From NCBI RefSeq assembly GCF_009733735.1, contig NZ_WNJP01000001.1:1-64000 (forward strand): 64,000 nucleotides of DNA. Direction: 5' to 3'. This stretch comes from Sandarakinorhabdus oryzae (GTDB lineage: Bacteria > Pseudomonadota > Alphaproteobacteria > Sphingomonadales > Sphingomonadaceae). Under the pieces are notes generated by a model. The model was given only the letters and a program-made list of their open reading frames with translations, was not told the DNA's origin and did not search any database. Position numbers and translations under genes: made by a program. Positions 42,407 through 59,510 of this stretch are shown here, one piece after another. How positions within the stretch are numbered: position 1 is the first letter of the stretch; each line of letters begins with the position of its first letter.

Positions 42407-42448
42407 GCCTCCGGCGGCCAGGGTCGCAGACCCTGGACCCGTTTGTTT
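42407..42448 (+). repeat. Dispersed GCCTCCGGCGG repeat, copy 1
   Basis: GCCTCCGGCGG, then CAGGGTCGCAGACCCTG hairpin, then ACCCGTTTGTTT. The middle folds as CAGGGT/ACCCTG; here C replaces one G of the usual GGGCAGGG, with the matching change GG for GC on the other arm, so pairing is kept. Four copies of this unit occur in the window. Confidence 0.8.
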
Positions 42449-42978: not shown

Positions 42979-43020
42979 AAACAAACGGGTGCAGGGATGA
43001 GTCCCTGCCCGCCGGAGGCT
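42979..43020 (-). repeat. Dispersed GCCTCCGGCGG repeat, copy 2
   Basis: On the minus strand it reads AGCCTCCGGCGGGCAGGG, ACTCAT, CCCTGCACCCGTTTGTTT. The hairpin GCAGGG/CCCTGC is perfect. This is the only inverted copy. It lies between the AT-rich small gene and the helix-turn-helix gene. Confidence 0.8.
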
Positions 43021-49272: not shown

Positions 49273-50505
49273 TCAGCGCTTGATCGACGCCGCTTCCACC
49301 ACGATGTCGAACGCCGTGGTCAACCCTTTCAGGAAATTGGCCTTTTCCACGTTCACATATTCATCCAACGCGTGGGCGCGGAATCCGCCGCCGCCGGCGG
49401 ACAGGGTGATGGCGGGAATGCCGATGCTGATCGGGATGTTGCTGTCGGTGGAGCCGGCGCCGAGGCGGGCGTGGTAGCCATTGGCCTTCAGCACGCGGGC
49501 CGCGGTCTGCACCAGCGGGTCGGTGGCAGGGGTGGCGCCGGCCGGGCGGTCGCCGATTAACTCGGGTGTGGCGCTGATCTTGCCATAGCGGGTGTCGCGG
49601 GCGGCGTTTTCGGCGGCGACATTGTCCTCGACCAGCTTGAGGAACTGGGCTTCGACAGCCTTGAGATTGGCCGGCGAGGCCGAGCGCATGTCGAATTCCA
49701 TGGTGATCGTGTTGGGAATGGAATTGACCGAGGTGCCGCCGGTGACGGTGGAGGCTGAATAGGTCGTCTTCACGTCGGTCGGCGGCACGATCTTGTAGAG
49801 GCCGGTGACGGTGCCGGCCATGGCCACCATCGGGTTGACGATCCCGAACGCGCCATAGCTGTGGCCACCGGGGCCAGTGAAGGCGACGCGGTAGCGCCGG
49901 GAGCCGACGCCGGCGTTGGTGACGCCGCCGACCGTGCTGCCATCGAAGCTGATGAAATCACCGATCCGCGATTTGAGCGGGCTGGCACTGAACAGGTGGC
50001 GCACGCCGCGCAGATCGCCCTGGCCTTCCTCGCCGACGTTGGCGACGAAGATGATGTCACGCGGCGTGGTGATCTTGGCGGCGTCCATGGCACGCACGAA
50101 GGCCAGCAGGGCAGCGAGGGTGACGGTGGTGTCACCGATGCCGGGGGCGTGCAGCGTCTCGCCTTCACGGCGCACCTTGGTGTTGGTGCCTTCCGGGAAC
50201 ACCGTGTCCTGGTGGGCGGCGACCATGAGCGCCTTGGCGGCGCGGTCCTTACCGGGGCGGATGCCGATGACATTGCCGACCGCATCCATGTGCACGTCGG
50301 ACAGGCCGAGGGCCTTGAATTTTTCGAGCAGGCGCTGGCCGCGGGCGGCCTCCTTGAACGGCGGCGCCGGAATCTCGGTCAACTCGATCAGTTCGGCGAT
50401 GGTCTGGTCGTAGTCGGCGGCCAGCCTGGCGTGAGCGGCCGGCAGGCCAGCCGGCTGGGCGGCGGCAGGGGCGGCGAGGAGCAGGGCAAGGATCAGGGTG
50501 CGCAT
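49273..50505 (-). CDS. M20 family metallopeptidase, secreted
   Basis: 410 residues from the ATG at 50505 (MRTLILALLLAAPAAAQPAG). The signal peptide ends near residue 16, so it acts in the periplasm or outside. Metal-site motifs are ALMVAAHQDTVFPEG, NVGEEGQGDLRG with the catalytic Glu pair, and the C-terminal FRAHALDEYVNV. The lid domain begins near VAFTGPGGHSYGAFG. The closest known types are tripeptidases and di-zinc aminopeptidases of the M20 clan. The frame is open upstream into radA on the other strand, which is a shadow. Confidence 0.9.
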   Translation of the reverse strand: MRTLILALLLAAPAAAQPAGLPAAHARLAADYDQTIAELIELTEIPAPPFKEAARGQRLLEKFKALGLSDVHMDAVGNVIGIRPGKDRAAKALMVAAHQDTVFPEGTNTKVRREGETLHAPGIGDTTVTLAALLAFVRAMDAAKITTPRDIIFVANVGEEGQGDLRGVRHLFSASPLKSRIGDFISFDGSTVGGVTNAGVGSRRYRVAFTGPGGHSYGAFGIVNPMVAMAGTVTGLYKIVPPTDVKTTYSASTVTGGTSVNSIPNTITMEFDMRSASPANLKAVEAQFLKLVEDNVAAENAARDTRYGKISATPELIGDRPAGATPATDPLVQTAARVLKANGYHARLGAGSTDSNIPISIGIPAITLSAGGGGFRAHALDEYVNVEKANFLKGLTTAFDIVVEAASIKR

Positions 50506-54070: not shown

Positions 54071-54502
54071 ATGTCCGAAGCCCTCTACAACGCGGCGATT
54101 CTGCGCCTTAAGCTGGCGGGCGAGACGGCGCACCGGCTGGCGGCCGCCGATGGCAGTGCCACACGCGTCTCCCCGGTGTGCGGCAGCAAGATCATCGCCG
54201 ATGTGGCGCTGGACCCCAATGGCCGTGTTGCGGCCGTCGGCCTCGATGCCACCAAGGCCTGCACGCTGGGCCAGGCCAGCGCCACCGTGGTGCTGGAGCG
54301 CGCCATCGGCCTCGACGTCGCCGCGCTGGCTGCCACGCGCACCCAACTGGCCGATTTCCTGGCCGGCCGGGCCGAGAGCGCGCCCGAAGGCTGGGCGATG
54401 TTCGCGCCAGCCCGCGCCCACCGCGCCCGTCACCCGTCGATCCTGCTCGCCCTTGATGCGGTGCTGGCCGCGCTTGCCGAAGCCGGGCAGCGGGCCGCCT
54501 GA
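54071..54502 (+). CDS. NifU/IscU-like iron-sulfur scaffold homologue
   Basis: 143 residues from the ATG at 54071. The fold is that of NifU_N: PVCGSKIIADVALDPNGRV with the first Cys and ATKACTLGQASATVVLERAI with the second. The third ligand Cys of IscU is not present; RARHPSILLALDAV has a His there, as I recall for an alphaproteobacterial subgroup. No isc or suf genes are near, so a direct scaffold role is uncertain. The stop shares one base with the antiporter start. Confidence 0.8.
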   Translation: MSEALYNAAILRLKLAGETAHRLAAADGSATRVSPVCGSKIIADVALDPNGRVAAVGLDATKACTLGQASATVVLERAIGLDVAALAATRTQLADFLAGRAESAPEGWAMFAPARAHRARHPSILLALDAVLAALAEAGQRAA

Positions 54503-56298
54503 TGGAGCATGGCGCCACCCTGCTGCGTGACGTGGTGGTGTATCTCGCCGCTGCGGTCGTGCTGGTGCCATTGTTCGTCCGCTTCAAGCTGGGGGCGGTG
54601 CTGGGTTATCTCGCTGCCGGCATCCTGATCGGCCCGGCGGTGCTCGGCCTGGTCGGGAATGCCGAACAGACGCTGCAGTTCGCCGAGTTCGGCATCGTGC
54701 TGCTGCTGTTCGTGATCGGCCTTGAGCTCCAGCCATCGCGGCTGTGGGCGCTCAGGCGGGATATCTTCGGCCTCGGGCTGTTGCAGGTGCTGCTGTGTGG
54801 CCTCGCGCTCACCGGCTTGCTGCTGGTGATGACCAGCCTCACCTGGCAGGCGGCGCTGGTCGTCGGCCTGCCGCTCGGCCTGTCCTCCACGGCGCTGGTC
54901 ATGCAGTTGCTGGCCGAACGCCAGATGGCTGCCACGCCGTTCGGCGAACGCAGCTTTGCCATGCTGCTGTTCCAGGATCTGGCGATCGTGCCGCTGCTCA
55001 CCATCGTCGCGGCGCTCTCCCGCGCCCCGGTCGCCAATCCCGAGCCCGGTTGGTTGATGGCCGCCAAGACGCTGGCGGCGCTCGCCTTCCTGGTCGCCGT
55101 CGGCCGCTTCGTGCTGCCGCGCGCTTTCCGGATGATCGGCAGCCTCGGCGCCCGCGAAGCCTTTGTCGCCGCCGCGCTGCTGTCCGTGCTGGGCAGCGCG
55201 CTCTTGATGGCGTCGCTGGGCCTGTCCATGGCGCTGGGCGCGTTCGTCGCCGGCGTCATGCTGGCCGAATCTCCCTATCGCCACGCGCTGGAAACCGACA
55301 TCGAGCCGTTCCGCGGCCTCATGCTCGGCCTGTTCTTCATCGCCATCGGCATGAGCCTCGATCTGTCGGTCGTTGCCGCCAACTGGGGCCTGCTGATCGG
55401 CCTCGTCATCGGCGTGATGGCAGTGAAGACGGCGGTGATCGCCGTGCTCGCCCGCCGCTTTGGCACCGATTGGCGCCGCGCCGTCGAGATGGGCCTGCTG
55501 CTCGCCCAGGGCGGCGAGTTCGGCTTCGTGCTGTTCAGCGAGGCCGAGCGCGGCCTGCTCATCAGCCATTCGGCCGCGCAACTGTTCGGCGCTGTTGTCA
55601 CCTGCTCCATGGCGCTCACCCCGCTGCTGTTCCGCCTCACCGCCCGCTATATCGAACGCCCCGAAGACCTGGGCAGCCGAGACGGGCCGGAAACCGCTGA
55701 CGGCGAGGGCCGTATCGGCCATGTCGTCCTCGTCGGTTCTGGACGGGTTGGCCAGGTCATCGCCCAGATGCTGCGGGCCCGCGGACAACCCATCACCGCC
55801 ATCGATCTTGATGCCGAACTGATCGACGTTACCGCCCGCTTCGGCAACCAGGTGTTCTGGGGCGACGGCACCCGCCTCGACATCTTGCGCACCGCCGGCA
55901 TTGATCGGGCCAGCGCCCTCGTCTTTGCCATCGATGGCCAGTGGGACCCGAAACTGGTGGTCGAACCGATCAAGGCCGAATGGCCCGATTTGCCAATCAT
56001 CGCCCGCGCCTATGATCGCACCCACGCCATCGCCCTGCGCCAGGCCGGGCTGGACCATGTCACCCGCGAAACGCTGGAAAGCGCCGTCGCCATGGGCCGC
56101 GACGTGCTCGAAACGCTCGGCACCCCCGTCACCATCATCGACGCCATCGAAGCCGAATATCGCCGCCGCGACATCGAACGGCTCGACCTGCAAATCCTGT
56201 CCGGCGACATGATGACCGGCGCCGACACCATCATCCGCGGCGCCCTCGACTTCAACACGCTCGACCCCGCCTCCCTGGGCGAAATCCCGCCGGCGTGA
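54502..56298 (+). CDS. CPA2 monovalent cation:proton antiporter (KefB/KefC type)
   Basis: 598 residues. About 12 membrane helices cover the first 390 residues, with FKLGAVLGYLAAGILIGP in helix 2 and ALLSVLGSALLMASLGLSMA in the middle. The C-terminal TrkA-N domain begins GHVVLVGSGRVGQVIAQML near 406, an NAD-binding fold as in Kef potassium efflux systems. It probably exports potassium in exchange for protons under electrophile or pH stress. No KefF/KefG ancillary gene is next to it. Confidence 0.92.
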   Translation: MEHGATLLRDVVVYLAAAVVLVPLFVRFKLGAVLGYLAAGILIGPAVLGLVGNAEQTLQFAEFGIVLLLFVIGLELQPSRLWALRRDIFGLGLLQVLLCGLALTGLLLVMTSLTWQAALVVGLPLGLSSTALVMQLLAERQMAATPFGERSFAMLLFQDLAIVPLLTIVAALSRAPVANPEPGWLMAAKTLAALAFLVAVGRFVLPRAFRMIGSLGAREAFVAAALLSVLGSALLMASLGLSMALGAFVAGVMLAESPYRHALETDIEPFRGLMLGLFFIAIGMSLDLSVVAANWGLLIGLVIGVMAVKTAVIAVLARRFGTDWRRAVEMGLLLAQGGEFGFVLFSEAERGLLISHSAAQLFGAVVTCSMALTPLLFRLTARYIERPEDLGSRDGPETADGEGRIGHVVLVGSGRVGQVIAQMLRARGQPITAIDLDAELIDVTARFGNQVFWGDGTRLDILRTAGIDRASALVFAIDGQWDPKLVVEPIKAEWPDLPIIARAYDRTHAIALRQAGLDHVTRETLESAVAMGRDVLETLGTPVTIIDAIEAEYRRRDIERLDLQILSGDMMTGADTIIRGALDFNTLDPASLGEIPPA

Positions 56299-56698
56299 AG
56301 GGTTAAGGCTGACAAGACCGGCGTTTCACATGCACCTTCAATTTTGACACTCTTGACGTTTCGTGTGGGATTCAGGCTTTTTCGCCGCCCGCAGCAATTC
56401 CGCCGGAACTCACAGGGCCTGAAGCAGGCCGTGGCGGGGCCTCCAGGTGACAAAGCTTACAACTCGTCCTCGTGCGCGCGAGGCTGTTCCCGGCTGAAGG
56501 CAAGCCCTCTGTTCCTACCATGCAGTGTAGTGCGGCCGGCGTGTGTAGGACAGGAGGAAGGAGCCTCCGGCGGGCAGGGTTGCAGACCCTGCACCCGTTT
56601 GTTTAGGGGCGCGTTGGTTGCACGGTGAACCCCAAGTCCGCTATTATGAATGTCTCGCTCAACAGCGGGGCTGATACTAGCTGGTTGACCGTGAATTG
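56299..56698. other. Intergenic region with a dispersed repeat
   Basis: 400 bp after the antiporter gene. Copy 3 of the GCCTCCGGCGG repeat is at 56563-56604. I see no clear terminator and no gene with a ribosome site. The stretch 56620-56698 upstream of the broken gene is less GC-rich and may keep its promoter. Confidence 0.6.
56563..56604 (+). repeat. Dispersed GCCTCCGGCGG repeat, copy 3
   Basis: GCCTCCGGCGGGCAGGG, TTGCAGA, CCCTGCACCCGTTTGTTT. The stem GCAGGGT/ACCCTGC has 7 pairs and a 5-base loop. It matches copy 4 and the minus-strand copy 2 closely. Confidence 0.82.
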
Positions 56699-57129
56699 AT
56701 GATGGAACCCGATGATTTTCTAATGATGGGCGCTCCGGTGCTTGGTGCTTGTCTCGAACCACTGGGCTTCGCGTTCAACATTGAACAGCCGTCACTGCAA
56801 GGCAGTGGCGGCCTGTTTGCCTGGGGCGCTTTTCGCCGCGATGATCTTGGCATCCGACTCTGGGCGCGTAACGAGAAACTCGGTGTCGTCTTGTATCAGG
56901 TCGGCTCAGTCGAGTTCACACACACCGCGCCCACATGCGCGTGCTGGGCCGGGAGGCTCTGGCGCAGTGGCCCGGATTCGACGATGGCGATCTGCTGGGC
57001 GGATTTCGCCGACTGCTTGATGATCTGCGCCACTGTGAGGAGTTCTTAAACGGCAATGCCGCAAAAGTTGCCGCCGCAGCGAAGGCGCTGGCGCCAGAAC
57101 GAGGGGGCCTGCAGCGACTGCACTACTGA
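56699..57129 (+). pseudogene. Gene of unknown function broken by a CA-repeat frameshift
   Basis: Frame 1 from the ATG at 56699 encodes GFAFNIEQPSLQGSGGLFAW and onward to VGSVEFTH. Then it runs into unlikely Cys/Trp-rich sequence. Frame 2 continues convincingly from MRVLGREALAQWPGFDDGDL to a stop at 57129. The switch lies in CACACACAC (56917-56925): removing one CA gives VEFTH-RAHMRVLG without a break, and a protein of 142 residues. I recall a family with a similar PGF-type block, but cannot name it. It may be a true pseudogene, a reversible slippage switch, or an assembly error. Confidence 0.6.
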
Positions 57130-57180
57130 GTTTGTCGCGGCTGTGATCTGGCTCATCCATGAAAGCGTGCCCAAGAGATT

Positions 57181-57222
57181 GCCTCCGGCGGGCAGGGTCG
57201 TGGACCCTGCACCCATGTGTTT
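57181..57222 (+). repeat. Dispersed GCCTCCGGCGG repeat, copy 4
   Basis: GCCTCCGGCGGGCAGGG, TCGTGGA, CCCTGCACCCATGTGTTT. The hairpin GCAGGGTC/GACCCTGC tolerates a small loop change; the tail differs slightly from CCCGTTTGTTT. It lies 51 bp after the broken gene. Confidence 0.75.
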
Positions 57223-57253
57223 GGAGCTGACTTCTCCCCTGCCATCTCTCGCC

Positions 57254-57284
57254 GTCACCCCGGACTTGATCCGGGGTTCCGCTT
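57254..57284 (+). repeat. Half copy of the atp-operon palindromic repeat
   Basis: GTCACCCCGGACTTGATCC and the next five bases are identical to the left arm at 39645; the following bases differ at one position. The right arm is missing. The unit still folds as CCCCGG/CCGGGG. Confidence 0.75.
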
Positions 57285-57338
57285 GCTTATGGCTCCGCCC
57301 CGTTGCCAACACCTGCCTGTCAATTATAGAACAAGGCC

Positions 57339-57923
57339 ATGATCTTCGACCAACCGATCGAGCATATGACGAGTCTGTTTGCAGAACAGTTTCTACCAGA
57401 TGGAAACGATTATCTCTACAGAAGGCAGTTGACGGCTGCTCCGGTCAGAGTGACCAATAGGGAGCGTGACGATTTTGTTGCAACCTTTCGTCGTCAGGCG
57501 CGCATCAGTTTCTGGGCGACTTCGCTAGGCCTGTTGCTGTTGACTACGATCTTGATCAGCATTTCCATGAACGACGAAACCCTGGACTTCGAGATGGGTA
57601 TCTATGTGATCATCGGGCTGGTTACGGTGCCATATTTCTGGTTCTTCTGGCTGGCATGGAACGCGCCGCACCGCGAATTGCGCCATCGTGCCACGGCAGG
57701 CGCCGCACTGACGAAAGACCAAGCGAGGCGCTTGGCTTTGGACAAGATCAGTTATGGGCAACTTGCCGGCGTTGCCGGTTGTAGTTTGTACTTCGTGTGG
57801 ATTGCATGGGAAAAGCATGGTGGATTCGTCGGCGGGGGCCGCTTCTGGCTGTGTTTTGCCGGGCTGATGATGCTGGTGGCTGTCGTACAGACCGTTCGCA
57901 AGTGGCGGCAGGATCGTACCTGA
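57339..57923 (+). CDS. Membrane protein of unknown function
   Basis: 194 residues from the ATG at 57339; an ATG nine codons later (MTSLFAEQFLPDG) is possible. The first 50 residues are soluble. Helices follow at about 53-75 (ARISFWATSLGLLLLTTILI), 86-107, 140-157 and 168-187. I recall related sphingomonad proteins with the LFAEQFLPDG start, but no function. Codon use is less GC-biased than in the neighbours. No operon partner. Confidence 0.7.
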   Translation: MIFDQPIEHMTSLFAEQFLPDGNDYLYRRQLTAAPVRVTNRERDDFVATFRRQARISFWATSLGLLLLTTILISISMNDETLDFEMGIYVIIGLVTVPYFWFFWLAWNAPHRELRHRATAGAALTKDQARRLALDKISYGQLAGVAGCSLYFVWIAWEKHGGFVGGGRFWLCFAGLMMLVAVVQTVRKWRQDRT

Positions 57924-58083
57924 AAGAACTCGCCGCGCCCGCTCAGCCTGACAGCCCTGCAAACCAACCTTAGGCACGATCAGGCCAATATCCGCATCAA
58001 GCCAGAACTTGGCGGCCCCGCCCGGCGCGCTTCCGCAGGTTGCGCCGATGCGTTATGGTTTCACGGTCTGGGTGGGGGAAATC

Positions 58084-58731
58084 ATGGCAGCGGCGATCAG
58101 GGCGCGCTTGGAAGTGGTGGCATGGACCGTCCTGACCGGTGCCATCGGCTATTTCGTGCTGCGGGACGTGCCGCAATATGCTGATTTCAGCTCGGCGGCT
58201 TACAATGATTTTCCGCGAACACGCTTTTACCTGGTCCCGCATCTCGTGGGCGCCGGGCTCGGCATATTGGCGGGCTTGCTGCAGTTTTCGGCGCGCATCC
58301 GGCGGCAATGGCCGGTGGTGCACCGGGTCAGCGGGCGCATATATGTGATTGGCTGCCTGGTGGGCGCGCCGGCGGCGGCCATGCTGGCGTTGAACAGTGA
58401 CTGTGTGACCTGTCGGCCGGCGCTGGGGTCGCTGGCGGTCTATTGGTTCGCCACGACGCTGGTGGCCTTCATCTTCATCCGGCAGCGCAGTTTCGCCGCG
58501 CATCGCGCTTTCATGATCCGCAGTTTCGTCGCGATGAATGTGTTCGTGATCGTGCGCATCGGCTATCTGCTGGCTGGCGCCGCCGGACGGGAGCCCAGCG
58601 TGCGCACGATGGTGGAGTTCACCTGTGTGTTTGCCCCGCTGCTGCTGTGCGAGGCCTGGCTGTCATGGAGCAGTGATGTCCGCGCCGGTGCTGCCGCGGC
58701 GCGCAAGATCGGCGCCCGCAAGGCCGGCTGA
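58084..58731 (+). CDS. DUF2306 domain membrane protein
   Basis: 215 residues from the ATG at 58084, with GGGGGAA before it; earlier in-frame codons at 58009 and 58051 lack a good site. About six to seven helices. The family pattern is clear: LVPHLVGAGLGILAGLLQFS, then VVHRVSGRIYVIGCLVG and FAAHRAFMIRSFVAMNVFV. Two conserved HR pairs precede helices. The function of DUF2306 is unknown. It ends 5 bp before the convergent oxidoreductase gene. Confidence 0.83.
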   Translation: MAAAIRARLEVVAWTVLTGAIGYFVLRDVPQYADFSSAAYNDFPRTRFYLVPHLVGAGLGILAGLLQFSARIRRQWPVVHRVSGRIYVIGCLVGAPAAAMLALNSDCVTCRPALGSLAVYWFATTLVAFIFIRQRSFAAHRAFMIRSFVAMNVFVIVRIGYLLAGAAGREPSVRTMVEFTCVFAPLLLCEAWLSWSSDVRAGAAAARKIGARKAG

Positions 58732-58736
58732 ACCGG

Positions 58737-59510
58737 TCAGGTGCCGGCGAACCATTCGTAGCCGCGATCGGGCCAGTAACCGCCCTTGCCGCCGCCGAAC
58801 GGCGCCAGGCTGTCGGCGACAACGATCTGCATCAGATATTTGGCCTGCTTGTAGCCCAGTTGGCGTTCGACGCGCAGGCGCACTGGGGCGCCGTTGCCGG
58901 TGGAGAGGGGTTGGCCGTTGAGGCTGTGGGCCAAGATGGTCTGCGGGTGGACGGCGTCGACCAGGTCGATGCTCTCGTAATAGCGGCTTTTCGATTGCAG
59001 GCCGCCCTTGGCGGGTTCGCCGCCATAATCATCGGCGCACAGGAAGACGATGTAGCGGGCGCCGTCGCGCAGGCCGGAGGCTTTCAGGATGTGCGCCAGT
59101 TGCGGCCCGGTCCATTGGCCGATGGCGCTCCAGCCTTCCACGCAGTCGTGGCGGGTGATCTGGGTGCGTTGCGGCAGCGCGCGCAGCTGGGGGAGGCTGA
59201 GGGACAGTTCGCGCTGGACCAGGCCGGTCACCTTCAGCCGCCAATCGGTGAACTTGCCGGCGGCAAGTCGCTGCCATTCCGGGTTGGTGGGTTCGTGGGT
59301 GCCGTTGACCTTGAAATTGGGCGAGATGTCGGCCGCGGAAAACTCGCGGGCCAGGCCGTCGCGGCCGGCGAGGCGTTGCCAGCGGTAGGTCGCCTGTTCG
59401 CCGGATTCCACCACCGCCTTGGCCGTCGAATTGCGGGTGAGCGCGTCGCAGCCGGTGAGCATCAGGCCGGCGGGCACGGCGGTGAGCAGCTGGCGGCGCG
59501 CGAGGATCAT
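58737..59510 (-). CDS. Molybdopterin-dependent oxidoreductase (sulfite oxidase/MsrP fold)
   Basis: 257 residues. The N-terminus LARRQLLTAVPAGLMLTGC combines a twin-arginine pair (R5, R6) with a lipobox at C21, so the protein is probably Tat-exported and lipid-anchored. The molybdenum-ligand Cys is in TRHDCVEGWSAIGQW near 121. It overlaps the upstream cytochrome b gene by 4 bp and should receive or give electrons through it. It resembles MsrP, but the partner is not MsrQ-like, so methionine sulfoxide repair is not assured. Confidence 0.87.
   Translation of the reverse strand: MILARRQLLTAVPAGLMLTGCDALTRNSTAKAVVESGEQATYRWQRLAGRDGLAREFSAADISPNFKVNGTHEPTNPEWQRLAAGKFTDWRLKVTGLVQRELSLSLPQLRALPQRTQITRHDCVEGWSAIGQWTGPQLAHILKASGLRDGARYIVFLCADDYGGEPAKGGLQSKSRYYESIDLVDAVHPQTILAHSLNGQPLSTGNGAPVRLRVERQLGYKQAKYLMQIVVADSLAPFGGGKGGYWPDRGYEWFAGT

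Follow-up and report, generated by a model that had tools for sequence, protein, structure and literature searches.

A gene of an unnamed protein family, split at a short CA repeat in the genome sequence of Sandarakinorhabdus oryzae

A split frame in a variable slot

In the window, by which we mean the whole 64,000-nucleotide stretch of DNA that was analysed, two small forward frames meet at a CACACACAC tract within a slot bounded by two backbone genes (Table 1). Orthologs of the left backbone gene, kefC, were found at 20 relative loci (L041-L060), most of which hold about 1.5 kb beyond the match. In the eight genus relatives in which both sides of the slot (window 56299-58736) are seen, the interval between kefC and the oxidoreductase gene measures 1045, 845, 896, 896, 898, 497, 880 and 21 nt and holds six different contents: one slot ORF is shared by L044, L045 and L048, four relatives have others and L051, at 21 nt, is nearly empty. 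The slot of genome G214 contains a different pair of small ORFs together with an ortholog of the 194-residue gene of the window; this 64% ortholog is the only one in the 23 other genus genomes, two of which give weak matches (28%). The protein obtained by joining the two split frames was matched at E 0.01 in none of the 20 relative loci, 12 of which stop short of the far side of the slot. Since its contents change in this way, the slot is a site of turnover at which the loss of cargo is unsurprising.

Table 1. Features at the split frame and in its surroundings (window coordinates)
Feature	Position	Strand	Remarks
Left backbone gene, KefB/KefC-type cation:proton antiporter with TrkA-N domain	54502..56298	+	Below the NCBIfam cut-offs for KefC/KefB, above that of the CPA2 family model; ortholog in relatives
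Dispersed 42-nt repeat, upstream copy	56563..56604	+	88% identical direct copy 618 nt further on
Upstream piece, as the genome reads	56699..57049	+	ATG 56699 to TAA 57047-57049; 116 residues, of which 75 in the family frame and 41 out of frame
CACACACAC tract at the frame break	56917..56925	+	Includes the codon of a histidine invariant in six relatives
Downstream piece, other frame	56926..57129	+	TGA 57127-57129; start in the ORF list ATG 56935; bears the WPGFDDGDLLGGFR signature and the C-terminal helices
Dispersed 42-nt repeat, downstream copy	57181..57222	+	Same orientation as the upstream copy
194-residue unnamed protein, slot cargo	57339..57923	+	No Pfam or NCBIfam match over cut-off
DUF2306 membrane protein, slot cargo	58084..58731	+	No match in ten relative intervals
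Right backbone gene, molybdopterin oxidoreductase-domain protein	58737..59510	-	At 8 of the 20 relative loci an ortholog lies near kefC
Further copies of the 17-nt repeat head	42407-42423, 43003-43019, 49390-49406		Elsewhere in the window

Dispersed repeats near the gene, one element of the original prediction, are present as direct 42-nt copies on both sides of it. The repeat is palindromic (GCCTCCGGCGGGCAGGG...CCCTGCACCC), REP-like by eye, and has dozens of matches in its own genome, where a search returned 45 places, the query itself included, nearly all through the 42-nt repeat. With a query of 1121 nt around the gene, matches were obtained in 21 of the 24 genus genomes (own genome included), and among the matches listed most fall on these repeats. 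With up to two mismatches allowed, the 17-nt head of the repeat occurs five times in the window against 0.13 copies expected. The repeats may mark or promote the turnover of cargo in the slot. A limited literature search found no paper on REP elements in Sphingomonadales and none in which PhasomeIt was applied to Sphingomonas. At one relative locus (L041, 2083-3129), an ORF that is HAD-like by eye lies in the slot between two repeat copies of opposite orientations. Between 56290 and 57345, a promoter scan returned nothing (0.3 expected), and one terminator-like site was found against 1.4 expected.

One gene read in two frames

The tract comprises 4.5 CA units (9 nt), occurs as a single copy in the 64-kb window (0.31 copies expected; at least one copy in 27 of 100 shuffles) and is one of five dinucleotide tracts of at least 9 nt found there. 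The downstream frame is free of stops from 56872 to its TGA, and the two frames overlap without stops over 175 nt (56872-57046), so that stops alone would permit a switch anywhere in this interval. A codon model, trained on 46 long ORFs of the window that were chosen mechanically, exclude any overlapping the target and may include false ORFs, places the optimal switch at 56926, with the positions within 1 bit of it spread over 56918-56931. The upstream part scores 0.09 in its own frame and -1.23 and -0.82 in the other forward frames, and the upstream frame drops to -0.44 beyond the tract. The downstream part scores 0.04 in its own frame and -1.30 and -0.48 in the other forward frames, with one antisense frame (0.11) slightly above its own. 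Relative to true genes both parts rank low, at the 16th percentile for the upstream part and the 12th for the downstream part.

The downstream frame is offset by exactly one extra two-base unit, and a reading with one CA unit removed yields 75 + 67 = 142 residues. The claim from which this work started, that two coding frames meet at the tract, is thus borne out by the sequence, by the interval given by the codon model and by the profile of six relatives described below, and its corollary, that one CA fewer restores a protein of 142 residues, agrees with both the residue count and the frame offset.

Relatives were obtained by scanning genome_contigs with a degenerate DNA pattern for [WY]PGFxDxxLxxFRxLxxDL, the residues of which are those of the window and the spacing of which follows that of other proteins of similar appearance. 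Having one more residue in the motif, the window itself gives 0 matches to this pattern, and the six loci that the scan returned (L082-L087) were judged by their alignment to the window. The records assign these distant relatives to Actinomycetes, Chloroflexi, Deltaproteobacteria, Gemmatimonadaceae, Rhizobium sp. and Bryobacterales; every one is metagenome-assembled, so that binning errors may have affected the group names. Each of the six aligns across the joint, at 37-40% identity and with pairwise blastp E values of 5e-6 to 5e-21.

A profile was built from the six relatives only, with the window sequence excluded, and run on the 1083 six-frame segments of at least 30 residues in the window. 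Exactly two segments match: 56681-57046, which covers profile positions 5-73 (E 2.6e-10), and 56872-57126, which covers positions 69-125 (E 1.7e-11), the next best segment having an E of 0.21. The two profile ranges adjoin at a histidine that is invariant in the six relatives (H72 in L085), encoded by CAC or CAT in the relatives and within the CA tract in the window; the reading with one CA unit fewer places this family histidine at the family spacing. With leave-one-out profiles, each of the six relatives is a single segment across the joint region. All six, distant relatives as they are, run unbroken at the joint and lack a CA tract there. Homologues ending naturally in the upstream frame, which had been set beforehand as the thing to look for, number zero: all six relatives run through the joint.

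Because a profile free of the window sequence matches exactly two pieces with adjoining ranges, we regard it as settled that 56699-57129 is a single gene, that a net gain of two bases breaks it once, on the tract or a few bases from it, and that it has no natural end in the upstream frame. More generally, a profile from which the query is left out can decide the case of a seeming orphan whose frame is broken. Two of the relatives depart from the family away from the joint: L087 (6673-7011) is missing profile positions 1-31 in its frame, and L084 (4694-5083) is gapped and matches poorly over the sheet region. These are possibly further broken copies or assembly faults.

A rare family without a name

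The joined protein matches only itself in its own genome. Searches of genome sets for the genus (24), family (199), order (396), class (385) and phylum (398), which overlap and each include its own genome, gave no convincing relative. In the 23 other genus genomes its best match has an E of 0.05; the genus search gave ten matches at E <= 10 in nine other genomes, of which L027 and L034 were inspected. Weak matches were seen in 4 other genomes of the family set, 11 of the order set, 7 of the class set and 0 of the phylum set. Profile A1, which includes the window protein, gave weak matches in 2 other genomes and no close relative over 397 family genomes. Peptide patterns run over genome_contigs and viral_contigs returned no close relative either, and the motif scan of viral_contigs returned nothing. 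Plasmids and phages searched by tblastn at E 10 held no relative of the joined protein, plasmids queried with the relative L083 at E 0.1 gave no match, and PDB sequences gave no match to the joined protein.

The weak matches inspected (L010-L013, L065, L066, L068, L071 and L074-L081) do not show the signature motif in the stretches inspected. L010 and L011 are the other frame opposite a gene that is nuoD-like by eye, L075 lies inside a frame of 609 residues, an ORF of quite different length, and the remainder are other frames of longer ORFs, short stretches or frames with stops. L067 is the same place as L012, and the inspection left out L069, L070, L072, L073, L089 and L090.

Among model libraries, the joined protein has no match in Pfam, NCBIfam or PADLOC and a best E of 0.22 in PHROGs, and the relatives L083 and L085 have no match in Pfam or NCBIfam. 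The family is therefore without a name in the four libraries searched. The query for the own-genome, genus, family, phylum, Pfam, NCBIfam and PDB searches, and for one of the peptide-pattern scans and one of the tblastn searches, had T for R after the joint histidine (1 of 142 residues), and that for the order, class, PHROGs and PADLOC searches, for the other pattern scan and tblastn search and for the alignments to relatives had R as read; this difference is not expected to change the negative results.

Three of the six relatives lie beside integron-type core sites. At L086 (2541-2957), GTTAGGC lies 15 nt before the start, and both GCCTAAC and GTTAGGC follow the end. L084 is preceded at 25 nt by GTTAGGT and L085 (2266-2700) is followed at 88 nt by GTTAGGC; no core site was found in the stretches scanned at L082, L083 and L087. 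Of the six relative genomes, two encode an integron integrase over the curated cut-off of 265 bits, that of L086 (484.7 bits) and that of L084; none of 14 control genomes does, all 14 giving weaker matches. By its flanking sequence L086 is an integron-type cassette, and the core sites at L086, L084 and L085 together with the integrases in the L086 and L084 genomes make the family look mobile. Beside the window gene, GTTRRRY is absent from the 400 nt upstream, and neither GTTRRRY nor RYYYAAC occurs in the 260 nt downstream.

A structure for L085, predicted from the alignment of the six relatives (mean pLDDT 83, pTM 0.78), begins with a helix at residues 3-21, followed by five strands up to residue 71 and a helix at 72-79. 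The signature is predicted at 87-99, in a loop that enters a helix at 96, with further helices to residue 130. H72 falls at the predicted strand-helix boundary, and the joint thus corresponds in the model to the start of the helix that follows the five-strand sheet. The truncated product would retain the sheet but be without the signature and the C-terminal helices, all of which lie after residue 72 of L085 in the model. Foldseek gave no match to the L085 model at E <= 0.001, and a second fold comparison gave Z values of at most 6.5, mostly to actin-capping protein, a level flagged as common and from which no function was drawn.

What the locus brings to light is an unnamed family with a predicted plan of helix, five-strand sheet and helices, found in records of six bacterial groups and marked by the invariant signature YPGFSDDPLDGFR. 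At least one member, L086, stands in an integron-cassette context.

How the frame may have been broken

The locus probably represents a single-copy accessory gene that belongs to an unnamed family of ~140 residues and lost its function when a short CA repeat gained a net two bases. On the most likely reading it is an ordinary frameshift pseudogene from a family that is rare and mobile; a consensus error ranks next, the weights given to a real indel and to an error being a matter of judgement. Replication slippage at the CA repeat would most likely have added one two-base unit. Translation from the ATG at 56699 would then read through the tract, add 41 out-of-frame residues and stop at 57049, and because the most conserved motif of the family and the C-terminal helices would be lost, no functional product would be expected. 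We infer that the gene came in by horizontal transfer, that the organism itself carries the extra unit, that slippage produced this unit and that the product is dead.

Neither half holds a stop or a second frame break, and 21 of the 27 family-invariant columns are kept in the window protein; if the gene is dead, it therefore died recently. The possible single substitutions that give a stop number 42 of 1278, with a chance of no new stop of 0.50 at a neutral divergence of 0.05 per site and of 0.12 at 0.15, so that stop-free halves are unremarkable below about 5-10% neutral divergence. The signs of decay are equivocal. Among invariant columns outside the search pattern, the N part keeps 8 of 8 and the C part 3 of 8 (p 0.026, from a small hand count and a test chosen afterwards); among all invariant columns the figures are 8 of 8 and 13 of 19 (p 0.14). 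These columns suggest a loss in the C part, whereas overall identity does not: identity to four intact relatives falls by 0.06 in both halves (0.40 to 0.34 and 0.50 to 0.44).

The same freedom from stops, with both halves otherwise family-like, would also be expected if the organism had an intact 142-residue gene and the extra CA were present in the draft sequence only. The assembly is a draft of 431 contigs, which favours this explanation, but if the genome was sequenced with short reads, an error of two bases within a 9-base repeat would be unusual for the consensus, and we consider a consensus or assembly error possible though doubtful. In its accessible text, the GeneTack survey leans towards such errors: its authors expect BLASTP-validated, unclustered frameshifts to be sequencing errors rather than genuine indels (PMC3711429). 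A reversible switch is a further alternative, in which the tract gains and loses units by slipped-strand mispairing and the gene toggles on and off in the population. It would account for the coincidence of the break with a dinucleotide tract, for the return of the family histidine to the family spacing with one unit fewer and for the absence of stops in the halves. According to the available portion of a Neisseria survey, several Gram-negative organisms, though not Neisseria, are known to have phase variation that dinucleotide tracts promote (PMC5953494), and the abstract of PMC3498834 describes a methyltransferase gene with 12 AG repeats. However, the 4.5 units of the tract fall short of the dinucleotide cut-offs seen in the accessible parts of two phase-variation surveys, 6 or more units for Campylobacter (PMC6321876) and 8 or more for Neisseria (in the methods; a table footnote says 6), the latter of which reports, in the same part, no length changes in Neisseria dinucleotide tracts (PMC5953494). 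The tract is also missing in all six relatives, distant as they are, no close relative was found for comparison, and dinucleotide tracts of 12 nt or longer are absent from the window; we consider such a switch unlikely. The original prediction had offered a pseudogene or a slippage switch. The first of these is supported by two pieces that are halves of one family unbroken at the joint in six of six relatives, and the second is disfavoured by a repeat below the published cut-offs, as far as the accessible text of those surveys gives them, and found in none of the relatives.

Slippage switches have mostly been studied in host-adapted bacteria. A switch of low rate in an accessory gene outside these bacteria, with a tract shorter than those counted as phase-variable so far and with the family in an integron cassette elsewhere, is quite unlikely in our estimation; if the tract did switch, dinucleotide phase variation would need fewer units than has been supposed. 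Very improbable is programmed recoding, ribosomal or transcriptional, by which the living organism would join the two frames across their stop-free overlap of 175 nt. The shift needed is -1 or +2, which by our own reasoning would mean a two-base forward hop for re-pairing on CA repeats; homopolymers in the gene reach at most 4-5 nt, none of 4 nt or more lies within 80 nt of the tract, and the relatives keep one continuous frame at the joint. We give practically no credence to two separate small genes that overlap by chance: each frame is open by itself, but each piece is one half of one continuous family, with ranges that adjoin, and unless naturally split relatives exist the six-relative profile refutes this explanation.

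We return to the frameshift pseudogene and its likeness to known systems. With the phase-variable genes driven by simple sequence repeats, of the types found in Haemophilus, Neisseria and Campylobacter, the locus shares a break on a short tandem repeat inside a reading frame, but its tract lies under the cut-offs of the two surveys, as given in their accessible text, is missing in relatives and comes with no evidence of length variation. Like integron gene cassettes, the family includes a member, L086, that is flanked on both sides by attC-like core sites in a genome with an integrase, whereas the window copy has no core sites in its scanned flanks (400 nt upstream and 260 nt downstream). The accessible part of the 2013 GeneTack survey treats most unclustered frameshift genes as indels or sequencing errors and counts overlapping genes among the ones that have no relatives (PMC3711429). 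The locus resembles such an unclustered 'fs-gene' in its one frame break, in relatives that are unbroken there and in a site that is not conserved. It differs, as far as that part of the survey allows the comparison, in that its family is unnamed and rare, so that annotation by known families would probably show two hypothetical ORFs only. As a broken gene it is ordinary, the frameshift pseudogene being a known kind.
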